This document shows, one piece after another, positions 37,808 to 47,796 of a stretch of 64,000 bases of DNA (the first letter of the stretch is position 1; the number at the start of each line of letters is the position of its first letter). Under the pieces are notes generated by a model that ran no database searches, was not told the DNA's origin, and saw only the letters and a program-made list of their open reading frames with translations. Source of the DNA: Leptospiraceae bacterium. GTDB taxonomy: Bacteria; Spirochaetota; Leptospiria; Leptospirales; Leptonemataceae. A program made the translations under genes and the position numbers. The stretch covers positions 1 to 64,000 of the forward strand of contig PBEB01000047.1 of assembly GCA_002717505.1 (NCBI GenBank), given 5' to 3'.

Positions 37808-38509
37808 GTGGAACCGGCGGAGGCACGGAGAATATTAGGGCTGGAATCCATGGATGAAGCGCTGGATCGGACCAGGCTCCAGCGGGCCTTCCATAGAAGG
37901 CTCTTTGAAATCCATCCAGATGCTCAAAACGCCCGAATCGAAACGGTGCAAGATGTGGTACCTTCGGATCAACCTTCGGCTCATGGTCAGCCTTCCGCAA
38001 TAGATGACTCTTCCGGGGTTACAGGCTCTTCTGGCGCGGAAAATTTGGCCCGGCCTGCCGCTCCTGTTTTAAGAAGGGATCTTTCGGTGGATACCCTCAT
38101 CGAAGCGCGAAAAACCCTGCTCATTCGGCTGGAGCGAGGAAATGATGCTCTGGACACCGAGCCATCTAAGACTACAGGCGGTGCGGAGTTCAATGGCGGG
38201 CAAAAAAAGGAGTCCGGACCTTCGGGGGCTGATGGTTACAAGCTCTATCGCCGGGCACTATTTCTCTATTCCGAAGCAGTTCTGAATTACTTTGAAAAAA
38301 GAAAACATGTTAGTGGCAGGACGGTGAGCGAGCCCACGGCAGAACCGGAGGGGTTTCGTTCCACGCTGGAGGAGGCCCGGTCTCTATTTGTTCAGGTTCT
38401 GGAACGATTCCCCGGAGGAACCTGGACCCCGGATTCCATAGAGCAAATTGCCCGGATTAACGTCTGGTTGAAGCGTGATAGCGCCAGTGGAAGCCAGGTC
38501 CCGAAATAG
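37808..38509 (+). CDS. J-domain-like protein
   Basis: A 233-residue soluble protein. The N-terminus (ARRILGLESMDEALDRTRLQRAFHRRLFEIHPDAQ) is like a DnaJ J domain, with HPD at 36-38. The rest is an acidic, Gly/Ser-rich linker and a helical C-terminal part (YKLYRRALFLYSEAVLNYFEKRK, then a helix-repeat-like end). No zinc or client-binding DnaJ domains. The start is GTG 37808. The last 126 bp overlap the end of the gene on the other strand, which is unusual. Confidence 0.6.
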   Translation: MEPAEARRILGLESMDEALDRTRLQRAFHRRLFEIHPDAQNARIETVQDVVPSDQPSAHGQPSAIDDSSGVTGSSGAENLARPAAPVLRRDLSVDTLIEARKTLLIRLERGNDALDTEPSKTTGGAEFNGGQKKESGPSGADGYKLYRRALFLYSEAVLNYFEKRKHVSGRTVSEPTAEPEGFRSTLEEARSLFVQVLERFPGGTWTPDSIEQIARINVWLKRDSASGSQVPK

Positions 38510-39400
38510 ATCATAGAGCCAGAGAAAGGGGAGGGCTCGAGAGAAGGAATTTAGTCTCCTGGATGCGTTTCTAAAAATTCGGTCCGGGTCTGCTCTCAGG
38601 GACTGAATGCGATTCGCATAGAGAAATGTATCCAGGTTTCGGAACCGGGCCGAAGCGATGTCATCCGGCATTCCGTAGAGCAAGAGAGATTCCACAAGTA
38701 CCAGGGCTCCTTCGATAGGATGAAAGATCCTTCTCGCAATTCTCTGCACCGTAGATCTCATGGAGCCAGGGTCCAGACCAGGACGATGGAAATCCTTTAG
38801 CAGTAAGATTCGCAAGCGTGAAGCCATGGAAGGGTTCTTCTTTAAATAGGAATCCAGTTCGTGGCAGAGAAGCAGGGTATCCACCCTCTGGCAATCCAGG
38901 TCAGCCACGACCACAATGGAAGACTGTTCACGCATTCCATCCATCAAAAGAGTAATGTCGCTGGCATTTCTAAGGTCTGTCCTTGGCATGTAGCCGGAGA
39001 ATAAAAAGGCCTGCCTGTACAGTCTGCGAAACGGATCATCCATAATCAAAAGCGCGGAACCGGTCTGACTCGCTTCCAGGGATGGAAACAGGAAGGAGCT
39101 GGGAGCGCCGGGAAAAAAGAGAGCGCCTGCCCCTGACTCATAGAGCTTTCTCATCGCTTCAGGGTTTTGATGTTGATGGCCAGCGCAAAGCAGAACTGGC
39201 AAACCCCAGTCCAGCATCTCTTCCACTTGATTCTTTCCGAGTTCCGGTATCCATAGAGAACCGGAGGCAGCATGTGCCGGCTCAAAGCTGGTCACTGTGC
39301 GATAATGGATGAGACCGTTCGCCTCCTGGGACTCCAGATAGGCATCCATCAAATGGATCTGATGCTGCGCCAGATCAAGGCCAGCGAAAACTACATCCAT
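38384..39400 (-). CDS. Protein of unknown function, overlaps its convergent neighbour
   Basis: A 338-residue soluble protein without signal peptide. It has alternating beta-alpha elements at the start (MDVVFAGLD..., LPVLLCAGHQ) and in the middle (SSIVVVADLDCQ, LRILLLKDFH), suggestive of Rossmann or receiver-like folds, but no catalytic motif that I know. The start is coupled to the acylase gene: its ATG lies 10 bp inside the end of that gene (39391-39400). Its last 126 bp are antisense to the J-domain-like gene. Confidence 0.6.
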   Translation of the reverse strand: MDVVFAGLDLAQHQIHLMDAYLESQEANGLIHYRTVTSFEPAHAASGSLWIPELGKNQVEEMLDWGLPVLLCAGHQHQNPEAMRKLYESGAGALFFPGAPSSFLFPSLEASQTGSALLIMDDPFRRLYRQAFLFSGYMPRTDLRNASDITLLMDGMREQSSIVVVADLDCQRVDTLLLCHELDSYLKKNPSMASRLRILLLKDFHRPGLDPGSMRSTVQRIARRIFHPIEGALVLVESLLLYGMPDDIASARFRNLDTFLYANRIQSLRADPDRIFRNASRRLNSFSRALPFLWLYDLFRDLASTGAITLQPDVNPGNLLYGIRGPGSSGESFQNLNK

Positions 39401-41604
39401 TCAGGCTCCTGACCAGGATGGTAGCTACGAATAGTCCGAAACTCAATCTCGTTTTCGTCGAGGTAGGTCCGTCTTAAAAGGCGTTTCTGGAAAATTGGGG
39501 CCTGGTCAGCATAATGCCGGGACTCCGGTCGCATACTGCTGCCATAGGGTTGTGCTGCAAAGGATTGCACTCCTTCACGAGTAAACTCTACAAGCATGAT
39601 AAAAGAATCGCCGGCATAGATCTTTTGCCATTCAGGATGCAACCAGCCCTGCAGGCCTTCCAGGTCTTTCATGTGCATTGCATTTAAAACGTCAGGTCCG
39701 CCACCCATTCCAAGCACCGTATCGCCGCGAATCAGCTTCTGACGACTCTGCAGGGGATCGCTCAACGTTCCAGTGTCCAGTAAATAGTCCACTGCCTCAC
39801 GAAAGGAGTCCACGGGATCCGGAGCCTCTTCAATGGGTTTTCGATCCACAACCAGAGTTTTCCAGATAGGTCTCCAGGTTAGCATCGCCAGCATGGCTCC
39901 CTGGCTTTCAGGCCGGGCCGTACCATCCCAGTTGCGAAGCACTTCCAGAGCTTCCTTTTCCAGGGCATTGGTAGGTCGGAATCGTTCCAGAACCGGATAT
40001 ACTGCCTCTTGATAGATCGGAGCCGATGGATGATACTCTTGATCAAACTTATATCGCAGGAATTCTTCCCGACTGATGGAACTGTCCCCGCCGAATAATT
40101 CCAGAGAACGCAGAGCCCGGTTGGTGAGGCGGCGCTCTATATAATTGTACTGCTCATTGTCCCGGGGGTCCGGATTATATGGGGTGCTGGTTGTATAGAA
40201 TGGAGTGGAGTTGGCATTCTGCACGAATCCAGAACGCGGATTGATGACCGCAGGAAGTTCATCATAGTCCAGGTATTCTTCCCAGAGGTATGCCGTGCTG
40301 TTTCCCGGTATAATTCCCGAGTATTCCGGACCAGACGTCCTAACCGGGAGCCTTGCATTGTAGACGTAAGCTATATTCTGGGCATCCGCGTAGACAGTAT
40401 GAAACATGGGCATGGATTGCATTTCCATAGCGGCGGTCCATTCCTGGAAGTTTTGGGCTCGCCCCATGCGATACCATTGCTCAGCAGACGCTGCATGATT
40501 CTCGATGCCGGCCACGCGAACTGCGATGAGGCCGGAGTCGGTTTCCAGGGCCGGACCAAAGATCGTGTCATAGACAGTCCGGCTAACTGTAAATTCGAAA
40601 AAGAATAGATCCAGAGTGATATCTACATCTCTGGTCTGTAACGGTTTTTCTTCACCATCTACTGTGTACTTCGTATAATCCTCATCCGTCTGAAGCCGAT
40701 ACGAGTCCACGAGATCCGGAGTATTCACTGTATGCGTCCAGCCGAGCTTCTTGTTATGACCTACGAAAATCAGAGGGCTTCCGGGAAACGTAGCTCCGTA
40801 CATTTCGAATCCATCTTTGCTTTTTAAATGCGCTTCATACCAGGCTACGGCGCCATCCCAGGGCTGATGCGAATTGACGTTCAATCTATGGATGCCATCG
40901 GCAGAGCGGCTTCGAGACACTGCATGAGCATTGCTGGCCACCATCGCATAGTCCTCATACCAGCTGGTTTTCTCCTGATCCTGCTTTGCCGGGGCGGAAG
41001 ATTCCTCTTCTGGTGGTCTGGCAGCCAGGGCTTTTCCCAGTTCTTGGCCTGTTCCAACGAACAGAGGAATTTTGTGCACGAAGCCTCTTGCAAGATCCTT
41101 CGCTTCCACCGGGAAGAATCGTCCATCCACCTCTTCTGGATGTAAGGCCGCATAATAATTTAGTCCATCCGCATAACCTTGAAATACTTCCTGGAGTTCC
41201 GGAGATATTTGCGCATCGTACACCGCTTCTGTTCGATCATTTATGCGAAACATTCCAGCATAGAAGTCATTCTGTAGCGAAGTGCTGGATAGATGGAGCC
41301 GAGAGAGTTGGCCGCGAGATGCAGCAACCACTGCCTGGATTGTGCTAAAATCATCTTCTGCATGAGCATAGGCCAGCCCAAAGGCCACGTCCTGCTCGGT
41401 TTCGCCCAGGATATGGGGGACTCCATAATCATCCCTTCGAATGGTCACATTGGTTGCTTTCTTTTCGAGCCGGGCCACAGACTCCGGGGATGGATTGTAG
41501 CGAACCCGGTGTGTTCTAAAGATCAGTCCGAGAAAAATAAGCGCACCCAGCCAGATGAAGATAAGAGCAGGAATGCGAATCCAACGGGATTGATTTGAGG
41601 CCAT
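39391..41604 (-). CDS. Penicillin-acylase-family amidase, membrane-anchored
   Basis: A 737-residue Ntn-hydrolase of the penicillin amidase family, which removes acyl chains from amides such as acyl-homoserine lactones or beta-lactams. After an N-terminal membrane helix (10-30) come the alpha part (NVTIRRDDYGVPHILGETEQDVAFGLAYAHAEDD) and the beta chain, whose nucleophile would be Ser224 in VASNAHAVS after autoprocessing. WYEAHL, FPGSPLIFVGHNKKLGWTHT and the C-terminal FIMLVEF segment fit the family. ATG 41604 is chosen; the frame upstream overlaps the rhomboid start. First of two coupled genes. Confidence 0.85.
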   Translation of the reverse strand: MASNQSRWIRIPALIFIWLGALIFLGLIFRTHRVRYNPSPESVARLEKKATNVTIRRDDYGVPHILGETEQDVAFGLAYAHAEDDFSTIQAVVAASRGQLSRLHLSSTSLQNDFYAGMFRINDRTEAVYDAQISPELQEVFQGYADGLNYYAALHPEEVDGRFFPVEAKDLARGFVHKIPLFVGTGQELGKALAARPPEEESSAPAKQDQEKTSWYEDYAMVASNAHAVSRSRSADGIHRLNVNSHQPWDGAVAWYEAHLKSKDGFEMYGATFPGSPLIFVGHNKKLGWTHTVNTPDLVDSYRLQTDEDYTKYTVDGEEKPLQTRDVDITLDLFFFEFTVSRTVYDTIFGPALETDSGLIAVRVAGIENHAASAEQWYRMGRAQNFQEWTAAMEMQSMPMFHTVYADAQNIAYVYNARLPVRTSGPEYSGIIPGNSTAYLWEEYLDYDELPAVINPRSGFVQNANSTPFYTTSTPYNPDPRDNEQYNYIERRLTNRALRSLELFGGDSSISREEFLRYKFDQEYHPSAPIYQEAVYPVLERFRPTNALEKEALEVLRNWDGTARPESQGAMLAMLTWRPIWKTLVVDRKPIEEAPDPVDSFREAVDYLLDTGTLSDPLQSRQKLIRGDTVLGMGGGPDVLNAMHMKDLEGLQGWLHPEWQKIYAGDSFIMLVEFTREGVQSFAAQPYGSSMRPESRHYADQAPIFQKRLLRRTYLDENEIEFRTIRSYHPGQEPEWM

Positions 41605-41711
41605 GGATTTCTGTGTGGGCCGGCCCGGAACAGGTGTCAAATGCAATCGGAGCGAAGAAATTTTCGGAATTTTTATTTGTGAATGGTGATATCCTGGGTT
41701 TTCTTGAAGCA

Positions 41712-42701
41712 ATGAGTGTTTTTCGAGCACCGGTAACCCGAACCCTTGTGGCCATCAATGTGGCTGCGTATATTTTGATGCTTCTCGCCCTCTGGGGCAA
41801 CGGTGCGCAGGCAGAGTCAATCTTTAGCACTTTTGCCCTTGTTCCGTCGATGTTCTGGAATCAGGCAGCAATCTGGCAGCCTTTAACAAGTATGTTTATG
41901 CATGGAGGGCACATACATATTTTGTTCAACATGATTACAATCTGGTCCCTGGGCTCCGTCGTGGAACATCGAGTGGGCCCCGGGAAATTTACAGCTTTGT
42001 ACTTCATTTCTGGCTTCTCAGGTGCGGCATTAATTCTTCTTGCATCTATCTGGGAGCTACCGGGAGCCGAGTCCTACAGGCCTGTGGTGGGAGCCTCCGG
42101 CGCCTTATTTGGTCTCATTGCAGCCCTGGTCGTATTCTATCCCAATGCTCGAGTTCTGCTATTCTTTGTTTTTCCTATGAAAGTACGGACTCTGGCCATA
42201 GGCGTAATAATTGTCTCCATTTTTCTTCAGCTAATGCAATGGGGGCTAGTAGGGGATGAGTCTTCCGGCGTTTTCGGGACCCTTGCCAGCTTGCCTATCT
42301 CACACCTGGGTCACCTTGGGGGCTTTTTTGGCGGTCTTCTCTTTGTATGGCTCGCAATAGCGCCATCAAAAGAAGAGAGAATGGATCCCGGACCTGCCAT
42401 GGGAGGCGGTTTTCGTATGGGCACCAGGCGAACTGGTCCTTCGCACACTACAGGGCCCGAGGAGCAGGTCCTTAGAATGATGCAGGAGTTGATGCGTCAA
42501 AGGCAATCTGGCGCAACGGGCCCGGGCCCTGCTCCTGGCGAGAGAAGGACCGTAAAAGAGATCAATCCCATCCAGGACTCCGAGCGTTTTGATGAACCAC
42601 CTTCCAATAAGCCTGAACGAGGAGAATCCGACTCCGGAAGCGCTCCAGGTAGCGGCAGGCTCTACTATGATCCGGCCAGCGGGCGTTTCTTCTTTAAGTA
42701 G
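41712..42701 (+). CDS. Rhomboid-family intramembrane serine protease
   Basis: A 329-residue protein with six membrane helices and the rhomboid active site: HILFNM (oxyanion Asn in helix 2), GASGALFGL with Ser129 in helix 4, and GHLGGFFGG with His201 in helix 6. It cleaves membrane proteins inside the bilayer. A hydrophilic C-terminal tail of about 110 residues, rich in Gly/Pro/Glu, ends in GRLYYDPASGRFFFK. ATG 41712 is chosen; no strong ribosome site. It is divergent from the acylase gene. Confidence 0.9.
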   Translation: MSVFRAPVTRTLVAINVAAYILMLLALWGNGAQAESIFSTFALVPSMFWNQAAIWQPLTSMFMHGGHIHILFNMITIWSLGSVVEHRVGPGKFTALYFISGFSGAALILLASIWELPGAESYRPVVGASGALFGLIAALVVFYPNARVLLFFVFPMKVRTLAIGVIIVSIFLQLMQWGLVGDESSGVFGTLASLPISHLGHLGGFFGGLLFVWLAIAPSKEERMDPGPAMGGGFRMGTRRTGPSHTTGPEEQVLRMMQELMRQRQSGATGPGPAPGERRTVKEINPIQDSERFDEPPSNKPERGESDSGSAPGSGRLYYDPASGRFFFK

Positions 42702-42841: not shown

Positions 42842-43183
42842 CTAAAAATCGTAGCTCTCCAGAGCCTCATCTACCGATTTAAAGATCTCAAAAACGGAGG
42901 TCAGTTTGGTGATCTCCATCAGGTTCTCCACATCGGAATTTAAACCGGCGAAGACCATTCGTCCTTTCAGGTAGTCCACATGCTTGAAAATGTTCAGAAA
43001 CAGGCCGAGAGCGGCGGAGTTGATGAACGGAACCTTCTTCATGTCGATAATGAACTTGGGGGCAGCATTGGGCTTAATATACTTTTCCATCTTTTCTGCC
43101 AGGTTGTATTCATCCCCGGACTTGATGGCTCCCTCAATCTTCACAATATTGACTTCGCCCCTTGTGGTAACCTTTACTTTCAT
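42842..43183 (-). CDS. STAS-domain anti-sigma-factor antagonist-like protein
   Basis: A 113-residue SpoIIAA/RsbV-like protein: beta start KVKVTTRGEVNIVKIEGAI, then FIIDMKKVPFINSAALGLFLNIF. In SpoIIAA the loop is DSSGLG; here it is NSAALG, so the phosphorylatable Ser is kept but its neighbours differ. Such proteins release sigma factors by binding anti-sigma kinases. Its ATG overlaps the stop of the upstream sigma-like gene (ATGA), so the pair is translated together. No kinase is nearby. Confidence 0.88.
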   Translation of the reverse strand: MKVKVTTRGEVNIVKIEGAIKSGDEYNLAEKMEKYIKPNAAPKFIIDMKKVPFINSAALGLFLNIFKHVDYLKGRMVFAGLNSDVENLMEITKLTSVFEIFKSVDEALESYDF

Positions 43184-44280
43184 ATGGATAATTTGAACCT
43201 TAGCATTTGCCCCGCTGTCTTGAGCAAATATTTCCCGGGTGCAAACAGATGCAATGGAAATGCAAAAGCACCTGAAAGACCAAGTTTATAGCACAGCTCA
43301 GTTTGACTGTAAAGCGAAATCCCCACAGGTTCAAGATTTTTTATGGGCTCCAGCAAGAGAAATTGGCGGTCCCCTGCTGTGCTGAATTGATAAAGCAGAC
43401 GGGGCTCGGGATAGCCCAGAAAACCGGCTTCCAGGGATCCTGGCATATCCGGAATCTGTTCAGGTAGCCGATCCAGAGCTGTTCGCAGAGCTCTGCGTCC
43501 TACGGAGATTCGCCGATGGAGGGCTGCCTTGCTAACCTGGAGGTAGCTCGATATGTCTCTCAAGCTCATTACGGTATTGGTGTTTCGAGTTCTTTCTTTT
43601 TCCAGCTTGCGTCTGATGTAACGATAGTCCCGCCCCTGGTTTCCCCGGTGCAGGCGGTCGAAGTAAAGGCTCATCTTATGTTTGTGTCTTCGTTTCCAGT
43701 GCTCCTGATCCTGGATTCTGCTCAAAAAGCTTTCATGCAACCCTCTTGCCTGCTCAGGAGAATGTCGTTGGCTGAGTTCACGGAGTTCGGACAGATCCAG
43801 GGGCCAGCCGCATTGAATCTTCATGGGAATCCGATGTACCGGTTCAATCTGCTTTAGCGCAAAGCTCAATGGTCCATGCCAGGCGGTGGTACGTTCTGTA
43901 TGGTATCCAAAATTCTCCACCGGCAAATCGCATTGCGCTGGTTCGTATTTCTTCACCTTCCTTACATAGTTCATAAAATCGAATCGCATGCAACGGGCCA
44001 GGTATCCGGTGAATCGAGAACCTGGTCTGGTGGTAAAGGAGTCCAGGAATCGGGGAAGTTTATCCAGGAATTGTATCAAGAAGTCCTGACAGAGGTCCGG
44101 GTCGTTATTCAGCCTTCTGGAATAGTTCATCATCCACAGGAAAGACTCGGAAACAAAGGAATCCGTTTGTCTGTGGTTGACATAGCGTAAGTAAGCCTCT
44201 TCCAGATCCGGTCTCTTGGTGTAATACTGAGCTGATTCCATACACGGAATCTGTTCTTTCCTCCTGGATCGTTCCAGCAA
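43180..44280 (-). CDS. Sigma-70-like protein with a C-terminal extension
   Basis: A 366-residue protein. Residues 40-110 (SFVSESFLWMMNYSRRL...QDFLIQFLDKLPRFLDSFTTRPGSRFTGYLARCMRFDFMNYVRK) look like sigma region 2. Residues 245-285 (SLRDISSYLQVSKAALHRRISVGRRALRTAL) look like the region 4 helix-turn-helix. The spacer is longer than in ECF sigmas and about 90 residues of unknown fold follow. The start is given as TTG 44280 after AGGAGG, with short spacing; ATG 44241 is the alternative. It is coupled to the STAS gene. A sigma role is inferred from pattern and neighbour. Confidence 0.6.
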   Translation of the reverse strand: MLERSRRKEQIPCMESAQYYTKRPDLEEAYLRYVNHRQTDSFVSESFLWMMNYSRRLNNDPDLCQDFLIQFLDKLPRFLDSFTTRPGSRFTGYLARCMRFDFMNYVRKVKKYEPAQCDLPVENFGYHTERTTAWHGPLSFALKQIEPVHRIPMKIQCGWPLDLSELRELSQRHSPEQARGLHESFLSRIQDQEHWKRRHKHKMSLYFDRLHRGNQGRDYRYIRRKLEKERTRNTNTVMSLRDISSYLQVSKAALHRRISVGRRALRTALDRLPEQIPDMPGSLEAGFLGYPEPRLLYQFSTAGDRQFLLLEPIKNLEPVGISLYSQTELCYKLGLSGAFAFPLHLFAPGKYLLKTAGQMLRFKLSI

Positions 44281-44352: not shown

Positions 44353-45297
44353 ATGCGAAACTCGGAGGAGCCCATTCGCTTTCGCAAGATGGAAGCTACC
44401 GGAAATGACTATGTCTACTTCGGCCCCTATTTAAGTTCTACCGGGCAGTTTGATCGTCAGCGCACAGAGGAAACGTTGCAATGGCTCACCGGAAGTACCA
44501 TTCGCAAACTTAGCGATCGTCACTTCGGTGTAGGCGGCGACGGCGTGGTGCTGGTGGCGGCGGCAAGAGAAGAGTCCGGAGCTGCGGCCCGAATGTACAT
44601 GTGGAACGCGGACGGCAGCCCATCGGCGATGTGCGGCAATGCATTGCGCAGTGTTGCCCTTCTGATTCACATGGAGACCAGACGATTCCACTTCGCCATA
44701 GAAATGGGAGAAAAAGTCTATGACTGCAAGATTGAACCTTCCGGTGAAGAGGACTTTAGTATTTCCATAGATATGGGGCCGCCCATACTGACCCTGGACC
44801 TGGTGCCTTTCGCGCCGGTACAGGGAACTGTTCTGATCCAGCCAGAAACTACCCGGGCCATGCCGGCACGGGTGGCCCTGGAAGCTGGTTCTGTGCAGTG
44901 GTCTGGCTACACTCTCTCTATGGGAAATCCGCACTTCGTGATTGATCTCGGAGAGCATGAAGCAGGTAGCCTGGATGGGTTAAACCTGCGAACACTGGGG
45001 CCGGCTCTTGAGCACCATCCTGCTTTTCCGGAACGGGTGAATACGGAGTTCATAGAGTGGAAGGATGCAGGTACCATTCGGCAAAGAACCTTTGAGAGAG
45101 GATCCGGAGAGACATTGAGCTGCGGAAGTGGTGCCTGCGCCGCATTTATTGCAGCAAGGGCATCCGCGATTCAGGATGGAAGAGCTCTGGATAAGCTAAC
45201 TGTAGAGTTACGAGGTGGTGTTCTGGAGCTATCGTTGGAGCAGGACAGGATTCGAATGAAAGGGCCTGCGCGAATCGTTTTTGAAGGATGGATTTAG
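44353..45297 (+). CDS. dapF: Diaminopimelate epimerase
   Basis: A 314-residue enzyme that turns LL- into meso-diaminopimelate for lysine and peptidoglycan. Both catalytic cysteines are present: MCGNALRS and ETLSCGSGACAA. RKMEATGNDYVYF, GGDGVV and GNPHFVIDL are typical. It is slightly longer than the usual 275 residues because of short inserts near the start. It stands alone, divergent from the sigma-like gene by 72 bp. Confidence 0.96.
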   Translation: MRNSEEPIRFRKMEATGNDYVYFGPYLSSTGQFDRQRTEETLQWLTGSTIRKLSDRHFGVGGDGVVLVAAAREESGAAARMYMWNADGSPSAMCGNALRSVALLIHMETRRFHFAIEMGEKVYDCKIEPSGEEDFSISIDMGPPILTLDLVPFAPVQGTVLIQPETTRAMPARVALEAGSVQWSGYTLSMGNPHFVIDLGEHEAGSLDGLNLRTLGPALEHHPAFPERVNTEFIEWKDAGTIRQRTFERGSGETLSCGSGACAAFIAARASAIQDGRALDKLTVELRGGVLELSLEQDRIRMKGPARIVFEGWI

Positions 45298-45338: not shown

Positions 45339-45881
45339 TTAGCGTCCTTTGCGAACGGTTCGAACCTGAGTCTTTGGAACAGTTAGACTGGTTCCGTCAG
45401 GTTTGATGATATTAATCAGGTTTCCCTGAATGATGGTTTTCACGTTTCGGTGAACAGAACCATCCCGCATGATTACGGTGTCGCTAAATCCAGGTCCAGG
45501 AGTGCTAACACTACCAGGGCCTACTTGTTTATCGTCGCCCTTAACAACTGTGCATTGCTGCGAATAGATAGTCAGAACATTAAGTTGCTCCGTATCTACC
45601 GTGCTGATTCTGGTTACTCCACCCTCGGCAGCAGCATTACTTACAGTTCCTTCCCCCCAGGTCCAGCCTACGATCCAGAGGTAGATTCTTCGAGTGCAAG
45701 CTTTACCTTCCCTGGTCTGGGGAATGCTAAGATCATTACCGCTACCGGGCATGGAAGTTTGCTGAAACAGCGCTCCCATTGGTCCCTGGCCTGCAGGATG
45801 ACCGATGAACATGCATTGAGAAAGCAATGCAGCTGCAAGAGCCAGTACGGAAATTTGAACTATACGTCTTGTCTGTCTCAT
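45339..45881 (-). CDS. TRL-like lipoprotein with an extra C-terminal module
   Basis: A 180-residue exported protein. The N-terminal signal ends in LLSQC, a loose spirochaete-type lipobox. The TRL-like domain has the same skeleton as its two neighbours: GKACTRR, WGEGTVSNAAAEGGVTRISTVD, IYSQQCTVVKG. After it, about 50 residues (TVIMRDGSVHRNVKTIIQG..., SLTVPKTQVRTVRKG) are unique among the three and resemble the end of the FecR-type lipoprotein encoded at 46684. ATG 45881 has GAGGGG 6 nt upstream and overlaps the preceding stop (ATGA). Last of three coupled genes. Function unknown. Confidence 0.78.
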   Translation of the reverse strand: MRQTRRIVQISVLALAAALLSQCMFIGHPAGQGPMGALFQQTSMPGSGNDLSIPQTREGKACTRRIYLWIVGWTWGEGTVSNAAAEGGVTRISTVDTEQLNVLTIYSQQCTVVKGDDKQVGPGSVSTPGPGFSDTVIMRDGSVHRNVKTIIQGNLINIIKPDGTSLTVPKTQVRTVRKGR

Positions 45882-46201
45882 TGCCACCCCCTCACTACTG
45901 TGCAGTATTTTGCGGTAATGCCAAGTACGCCTTCGGTAGTGTGACTTACGCTGGCAATCTTGTTAATACCGTTTTCTCGGGATGCAGCGCTAATGGAGGC
46001 ATCTCCAAATGCGAAGTAACCCAGGTAACTGGTAGCGCAAGCTCGACCGGTTAGCAGGTTGTTAGACTCAGCTGTGGCTGAACGTCCCAATCCGCCATTG
46101 TTGATTATGTTAACGAAGGCAGGGCTACCGTACTGAGTTGCATAACATGCAGGCATCAGCAGAGCCAGAACCCCCATCATAATGATTCGTTGGACCCGCA
46201 T
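45878..46201 (-). CDS. TRL-like lipoprotein
   Basis: A 107-residue lipoprotein: signal peptide with lipobox-like LMPAC (Cys19), then the TRL skeleton GRACATSYLGYFAFGDASISAASRENGINKIASV...KYCTVVRG. ATG 46201 has GGGGGA 6 nt upstream; its first base overlaps the stop of the gene before it (TGATG). Middle gene of three coupled paralogues. The two conserved Cys, one per half, could pair. The family (TRL, tRNA-associated locus) has no established function. Confidence 0.82.
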   Translation of the reverse strand: MRVQRIIMMGVLALLMPACYATQYGSPAFVNIINNGGLGRSATAESNNLLTGRACATSYLGYFAFGDASISAASRENGINKIASVSHTTEGVLGITAKYCTVVRGWQ

Positions 46202-46506
46202 CAGTTCCCCCTGACTACAGTGCAAGCCTGAGCGTATACCAGCAGGCTAAATACTTCTACGTCAATGGATTGAACTGCGGAGATCCCGCCTTCGGCTGCC
46301 GCTGCTCCCACCGAAGCGTCGCCAAGAGCCACCAGGCCCAGAAAGCTCTGCGCACAGGCCTGGCCTTTTTTAGCGCCATTAGGCGAACTTCCATGAATGC
46401 CAATCTTGGTGCTTGTGAAGATCATACCGGTAGGTCCGATGCCCCCGCTGGCGCAGCTTCCGAGCAGAAACAGGGATGCCACAATGAATAGAATCGATTT
46501 TTTCAA
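46201..46506 (-). CDS. TRL-like lipoprotein
   Basis: A 101-residue lipoprotein with a strong lipobox (LLGSC, Cys18) and the TRL skeleton GQACAQSFLGLVALGDASVGAAAAEGGISAVQSIDVEVFSLLVYAQACTVVRG. The start is TTG 46506, fixed by AGGAGG 6 nt upstream; a longer frame from 46527 would place the ribosome site inside the gene. First of three coupled TRL genes, divergent from the FecR-type lipoprotein gene. An AAAACA/TGTTTT inverted repeat lies at 46595-46612 between them. Confidence 0.84.
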   Translation of the reverse strand: MKKSILFIVASLFLLGSCASGGIGPTGMIFTSTKIGIHGSSPNGAKKGQACAQSFLGLVALGDASVGAAAAEGGISAVQSIDVEVFSLLVYAQACTVVRGN

Positions 46507-46594
46507 TTGTTTCCTCCTCTCAGGCAACTGGACTTAAGCAGTGTATCTTGCTTATCTTGTCTGAGCGATCGTGACTGCTTAGCGTATCTGCCCC

Positions 46595-46612
46595 AAAACA
46601 AACAAGTGTTTT
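46595..46612. promoter_or_regulatory. Inverted repeat in the TRL/FecR divergent promoter region
   Basis: AAAACA and TGTTTT flank a 6-bp centre in the 177-bp gap between the divergent TRL operon and the FecR-type gene. It could be an operator or simply an AT-rich promoter part. No clear -35/-10 pair was found. Confidence 0.25.
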
Positions 46613-46683
46613 TCTTCTTGATTTCGTTAGCGGCTAGCCTTAAGTCGTGGCGAAGAGGGTTATACCCCACTCTGGAGTTTTCT

Positions 46684-47796
46684 ATGTTATCTCGCTCATT
46701 CGCAGCAATATTAAGCATCTCAGCCATTTTCCTCTCTGGATGCGGCTTGTTTGATTCCCAGGCCGATCTTCCTGAGCCCGGAAAGGAGCTGAATGTATCC
46801 GCCGTAGTTCTTCTGGCCACAGGTCAGGTTACGGCGGATGGAGCGCCCATAAAGGCTGGCTCCATAATCCAATCCGGCCAATTGATCAAGACCGGCCCAA
46901 ACAGTTTCTGCGATCTTCAGGTACGCGGTGGCGATAGCTCGGCCATGATTCGACTGAAAGCGAATACGGAGCTTATTCTGAGCGGTCGCCAGTTTAAAGA
47001 GGAGAAGAAGATCCTGGCCGAATTGAAGAAAGGGAATGGAATGTTCGACCTGGACAAAATTACCAGCGCAGAGAACTTCGAAACGGCCAGCCCCACGGCC
47101 GTGGCTTCCGTGCGCGGTACAAAATACGAGGTTTCTGTAAAGGGCGATTCCACATCCATTGAGGTCCTGGAAGGTAAGGTTTCCAGCCGACCAAGAATCC
47201 CTGCTCTGGAAGACCTGCCTCCTGAGATCCAGGAGCGTTCCAGAGTAGTGCATGAGTCGGTAGAAAACCTCAAAAAGAAGGAAGTGATTCTGGAACCTGG
47301 TAAAAAGGTAGAGATTCAGGCTGTGAAAGTATCTCCGGAAGTAGAGGAAGCGGCCCGTAAAGCCATGGAGGCGGAAGCCAGTTCTGATCCAGTGAAAGCC
47401 GAAGAAGCGGCGAAGGCCCTGGATGACTCTATTGCACAAAAAGAAGATACTCTGAAAAAGGCCGTGGAGGAAGCTCCAGCTGCAGCGCCGGAAGACATTC
47501 CTGAACCGGAAATGAAGCAGAAGCTGGATGAATACAATGAGCTCATTCGCATAGAAAAGGAAAAGATTCAAGGGGACGATGTTTCAAAAGCGGTGAGCGA
47601 ACGAAACAACCAGAACCAGGCAAAGCTGATGCAGAGGATTGAAAAGGTTTTCAACAAACCTTCGGAGACTCTGGTGCTAATCAGTGGCGCTCGCATCTCC
47701 GGAGTCGTCATCCAGGTTGGTGCAACCTACTATGTCTATACTGTAAACGGTCAGGTAGCGTACCCCGAAAGCCAGGTTTCGGGCATTGAATTCTAA
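46684..47796 (+). CDS. FecR-domain lipoprotein
   Basis: A 370-residue lipoprotein (LSGC, Cys20). Residues 35-165 form a FecR-like domain ([58 protein letters not shown]), known in spirochaetes as a surface or periplasmic domain, not only in iron signalling. A long Glu/Lys/Ala-rich helical region (200-325) follows. The last 45 residues ([17 protein letters not shown]..., [14 protein letters not shown]) resemble the tail of the first TRL protein. GGAG precedes ATG 46684. sthA follows after 7 bp. Confidence 0.83.

Follow-up and report, generated by a model that had tools for sequence, protein, structure and literature searches.

An ECF-type sigma factor with a fused domain of its putative partner regulator, translationally coupled to an RsbV-like STAS protein in a Leptospiraceae bacterium

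The locus described here encodes a predicted, divergent ECF-type sigma factor, whose C-terminal extension corresponds to a domain that relatives encode in a separate gene, and an RsbV/SpoIIAA-like STAS protein whose start codon overlaps the stop codon of the sigma gene. We consider it somewhat probable that this is an ECF sigma factor with its partner regulator partly built in, and that the STAS protein feeds into the same response via a kinase encoded in trans. The ancestor would have possessed a sigma gene followed by a gene for a soluble two-part regulator, its C-terminal domain probably beta-rich and its head in some lineages of the zinc-type anti-sigma kind with the motif Hx3Cx2C. In the genus of the bacterium studied here, the regulator would then have lost its head, while its C-terminal domain became joined to the end of the sigma factor. 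There the domain most likely acts in cis, either by sensing a cytoplasmic cue or by holding the sigma factor in an inactive conformation, a mode of action that has been put forward for other ECF factors with regulatory extensions. The STAS protein probably works through its conserved serine together with an RsbW-type kinase encoded elsewhere, as an independent switch protein whose production is coupled to that of the sigma factor within the family. Cases in which an ECF extension originated from a fusion with an anti-sigma factor have been described (PMC8999054), and the locus fits such known built-in control of sigma factors better than the kinase-free partner switch proposed in the initial annotation. 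A search of open-licence papers yielded none on this locus and none on an ECF sigma factor-domain fusion with a STAS partner.

The window analysed comprises 64,000 nucleotides of contig PBEB01000047.1, designated C47 in a 4.4-Mb genome; the named genomes nearest to it come from metagenomes and are filed under Spirochaetaceae (L031, L032). The sigma gene (43180-44280, minus strand) can be read as 366 residues from a TTG codon at 44280 or as 353 residues from an ATG codon at 44241, and the latter, which is the start in relatives, is probably the genuine one. Its stop codon overlaps the start codon of the gene for the 113-residue STAS protein (42842-43183, minus strand) by 4 nucleotides (ATGA, 43180-43183), and no kinase gene is located between the two or adjacent to them; both the ATGA coupling to an RsbV-like gene and the missing RsbW-type kinase had been pointed out in the initial annotation and have held up. 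In the relatives examined, likewise, no HATPase kinase gene was found between or next to the sigma and STAS genes. The sigma gene belongs to a class-wide family whose members mostly adjoin dapF, the gene for diaminopimelate epimerase, which in the window is the divergent neighbour (44353-45297, plus strand) and which adjoins the sigma orthologue in the family of the window and, outside it, in several genomes from other families. Downstream of the STAS gene, a rhomboid protease gene (41595-42701, plus strand) is found, which is a convergent neighbour in many family members.

Taken alone, the sigma protein of the window matches the Pfam domain Sigma70_r2 (PF04542) with an E-value of 0.0027 and the ECF model TIGR02937 (sigma70-ECF) with an E-value of 0.0018 over residues 58-269, both below the cut-off. 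Its orthologues L036 (58.7 bits) and L035 (44.9 bits) exceed the TIGR02937 cut-off of 42.9 bits, and a profile of 22 orthologues matches solved ECF sigma factors with E-values of about 1e-5, in two separate matches, one running from region 2 into early region 4 and the other covering the helix-turn-helix of region 4. Because the orthologues pass this cut-off and the family profile matches solved ECF sigma factors, the protein is firmly predicted, through its orthologues, to be a divergent ECF-type sigma factor. The parts resembling sigma regions 2 and 4 that had been noticed initially are confirmed by these scores. Region 2 comprises residues 52-110 of the 366-residue reading (43951-44127, minus strand; PF04542 match and alignment), and the helix-turn-helix of region 4.2 residues 236-269 (43474-43575, minus strand; TIGR02937 match, alignment and family profile). 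What had been described as a long spacer proved to be a charged insert inside region 4 that separates its 4.1 helix from its helix-turn-helix (43570-43791, minus strand, boundaries approximate), has a length of about 70-80 residues and is common to the whole class; at this position, 8 residues of the solved SigE face about 86 positions of the family profile. Of the 48 genomes of the class, 47 contain a match to the family profile at an E-value threshold of 1e-6. Those scoring above about 95 bits were taken as orthologues, which are present in most of these genomes, and the weaker second matches probably represent other sigma factors.

The C-terminal extension, put at 90 residues in the initial annotation, has in fact about 95 (approximately residues 272-366; 43183-43467, minus strand) and is intact in three genomes. 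As judged from profile matches and alignment, it is the C-terminal domain of a protein which in relatives is encoded by a separate gene between the sigma and STAS genes, hereafter termed the middle protein. A profile of 11 middle proteins, built with the genus of the window left out, matches residues 294-364 (43189-43401, minus strand) with an E-value of 1.6e-6 and two other fused orthologues with E-values of 1.7e-7 and 8.9e-7, and none of 2683 shuffled decoys scored below an E-value of 1. When the extension is aligned with the corresponding domain of the separate middle proteins, the core motifs are seen to be kept. In L035, L036, L042, L043 and L046, the middle gene overlaps the STAS gene by the same 4 nucleotides, as is expected if the fusion kept the end of the middle gene. 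Three genomes of the genus carry the fused reading frame uninterrupted (60-85% identity), with the extension under purifying selection (dN 0.08-0.24 versus dS 0.45-1.24 within the genus) and, in a more distant pair, more conserved than the sigma part (69% versus 54-60% identity); an origin of the fusion by frameshift or assembly artefact was rejected on these grounds. In the sigma tree, the fused proteins form one clade (100/99), so that a single fusion event suffices, and the fused genus groups, with weak support (88/79), next to lineages whose middle proteins are short. A conserved domain after region 4, the feature by which ECF factors with regulatory extensions are recognised, is thus found in three genomes. 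The extension has no match in Pfam and NCBIfam, including the known extension domains (SnoaL, TPR, zinc finger plus TM), and an AlphaFold model of the fused protein from three sequences had a pLDDT of 35 and was unusable.

The order sigma-middle-STAS is found at 15 loci of the family, in other genera, and the fused sigma-STAS order in three genomes of the genus of the window. In other families, the middle gene is located directly 3' of the sigma gene in the nine genomes examined, in all of which a STAS gene is absent after the pair and a SlyD-like gene (identified by eye) or another gene is present instead; their middle proteins match those of the family of the window with an hhalign probability of 95% (E-value 2.8e-8, 148 columns). 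The motif Hx3Cx2C, which serves for calling zinc-type class I anti-sigma domains (PMC7406223), occurs in the N-terminal part of 4 of 23 middle proteins from two orders (L036, L039 and L046 of the family of the window and L153/L049 of another order), compared with 0.005 occurrences on average and a maximum of 1 over 5000 shuffles. Its presence in two orders suggests that it is probably ancestral and was repeatedly lost. Most middle proteins are devoid of the motif, matches to zf-HC2 reach an E-value of 0.2 at best, and no anti-sigma family of Pfam or NCBIfam matches the middle protein; class I anti-sigma groups are known to mix zinc and non-zinc members (PMC7406223). The position of the middle protein after the sigma factor and the motif make an anti-sigma role likely, and we regard it as a putative anti-sigma factor. 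The possibility that it is an RsbW-like kinase was rejected, as no HATPase match was obtained. The head is reduced or lost in the short middle proteins of L043, L044, L045, L051 and L132-L134, and in several genera the entire N-terminal part is missing. For the C-terminal domain, weak and non-significant Pfam matches to BiPBP_C and DUF3244 (E > 0.1) hint at an Ig-like beta fold; a profile search of the PDB gave nothing convincing. In G031, the gene after the sigma gene encodes a 106-residue protein with two CxxC pairs that replaces the middle protein (L154:1179-1499, minus strand; also in L048).

For the STAS protein, the match to TIGR00377 (ant_ant_sig) exceeds the cut-off, and matches to the solved proteins SpoIIAA and TM1442 were also obtained. 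In the alignment, Ser58 of SpoIIAA, the phospho-acceptor, has its counterpart in Ser56 of the STAS protein (codon 43016-43018), so that the STAS profile and the acceptor serine of RsbV/SpoIIAA-type anti-anti-sigma factors are found together; the preceding residue, Asp57 in SpoIIAA, is replaced by Asn. The sequence Val-Pro-Phe-x-Asn-Ser is kept in 36 orthologues, an invariance due in part to selection, as a portion of this motif was used for their collection; the set includes all loci from a whole-protein search among L092-L121. A single strong orthologue was found in 39 of 61 related genomes, representing all six families of the class. Within the genus, the STAS protein differs by 0-1 residue (99-100% identity, dN 0-0.008), compared with differences of 15-40% in the sigma factor and identities of 68-85% in the extension. 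It is thus a protein of older origin that occurs throughout the class and has hardly changed; it deserves attention as one with no known partner. In most genomes examined outside the family it is encoded without a sigma or middle gene alongside, namely, in the sister family, beside the genes of an AsmA-like protein and of a DUF1318 lipoprotein and, elsewhere, beside those for an MFS transporter, a cytidylyltransferase or other proteins. In G024, a member of the sister family, the sigma gene is situated directly upstream of the STAS gene with no middle gene, which indicates that a sigma-STAS link may not need the extension domain. The AsmA-like protein of the STAS cluster has about 1000 residues (L122:5304-9303; same order in L123, L126 and L127), and the cluster hints at a connection with the envelope or with lipid transport that recalls MlaB.

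RsbW-type HATPases are encoded elsewhere in the genome, one on contig C33 beside another STAS gene, one on C25 within a larger protein, and one on C74 (G000:C74:75252-75689, L182) as a standalone protein of 146 residues with no adjoining STAS or sigma gene; the lack of a kinase at the locus hence does not mean the lack of a kinase. Orthologues of the C74 kinase are present in G024 and in 17 of the 22 family genomes, with a weak 18th match in addition, and this conservation makes it a candidate trans partner. One might therefore envisage a classic partner switch in trans, in which the C74 kinase binds both the STAS protein and the sigma factor and the fused domain is secondary. The HATPase_c_2 proteins of the genome and the retained Ser56 are consistent with this, as is the occurrence of the C74 kinase in the majority of the family and also in G024, the only genome seen outside the family with adjacent sigma and STAS genes. 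We nevertheless judge it unlikely, since the C74 kinase also occurs in G022, f4 and f6, which lack an adjacent sigma-STAS pair, and was not found in G014, which has one; moreover, 18 STAS domains of the genome score above the cut-off, some of them beside their own kinases, and to our knowledge RsbW-type anti-sigma factors are known for group-3 sigma factors and not for ECF factors. The idea put forward initially, that the extension is itself the target of the STAS protein and that phosphorylation-dependent binding switches the sigma factor with no anti-sigma kinase, appears slightly less likely still. It would account for a locus without a kinase, for the tight translational coupling kept in the genus, for the close gene order, with the middle gene, at the 15 further loci of the family, and for the conserved phospho-acceptor serine. 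However, the view that the extension evolved as a STAS target in replacement of the kinase is not supported, as the extension is the C-terminal domain of the middle protein and this protein is paired with the sigma factor in other families with no STAS gene nearby. Against direct binding also speak G024, where the STAS gene adjoins a sigma gene without the domain, the predominance of STAS genes without a sigma gene among the genomes examined outside the family, and the near-invariance of the STAS protein against a changing extension, which is unlike a dedicated co-evolving pair. A variant in which the STAS protein binds the fused former regulator domain and so controls the ECF sigma factor directly, with a kinase in trans setting the switch, is given a marginally lower probability again.

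The extension might, on the other hand, be a functionless leftover of the loss of the head, the sigma factor being constitutively active or regulated solely through its own transcription, as might be supposed from the reduction or loss of the head in several lineages (L043, L044, L045, L051, L132-L134). This is very improbable, because the extension is under purifying selection, has kept the core motifs of the domain and is conserved above the sigma part in the distant pair. The favoured reading, an ECF sigma factor with a partly built-in regulator and a STAS protein acting through a kinase in trans, accommodates the coupling within the family, which argues for a functional link between sigma factor and STAS protein. 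Control in cis is made less obvious by the fact that the retained piece is the C-terminal part of the regulator and not the putative anti-sigma head.

An ECF core with a fused C-terminal domain is likewise found in the ECF factors with regulatory C-terminal extensions, of which some are believed to go back to an ancient anti-sigma fusion (PMC8999054, PMC3426412). Unlike in the groups ECF41, ECF42 and ECF52, the extension of the window shows no match to SnoaL, TPR or zinc-finger domains and is an unnamed domain for which relatives still have a separate gene; the sigma factor is further distinguished by its region-4 insert and the co-translated RsbV-like gene. The pairs of ECF factors and soluble class I (ZAS) anti-sigma factors (PMC7406223) are resembled in that the middle protein is encoded directly 3' of the sigma factor, has no obvious membrane segment and carries Hx3Cx2C in some members of two orders, whereas middle proteins have no significant zf-HC2 match and mostly lack the motif, and in the genus of the window the head has disappeared. 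With RsbV-RsbW-SigB and SpoIIAA-SpoIIAB-SigF, the locus shares a STAS protein with a conserved acceptor serine and translational coupling to the sigma gene; it differs from these systems in the lack of a kinase, in a sigma factor that is ECF-like and not of group 3, and in that what relatives encode between sigma and STAS is not a HATPase. We seem to be dealing with an uncharacterised sigma/regulator pair kept across a whole spirochaete class beside dapF, and with a snapshot of a two-gene sigma control turning into a one-protein control, in which the fused, short-separate, long-separate and zinc-headed forms of relatives make the role of each piece testable by comparison.

Some further genes in the vicinity are worth mentioning. 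A FecR-domain protein (Pfam FecR, E-value 1.7e-12) is encoded a few genes from the sigma gene (46507-47796, plus strand), and in another family (L156/L052) such a protein follows directly after the sigma-middle pair (L156:18-770, minus strand); in Leptospira interrogans, an ECF sigma factor is regulated by a FecR-like protein (PMC12155086). Three diverged tandem genes of the TRL-like family (PF13146, E-values 1e-18 to 1e-23) are located at 45339-46527 on the minus strand. A 338-residue protein with no Pfam match is encoded at 38384-39400 (minus strand); in three genera, related proteins are encoded close to this same locus.
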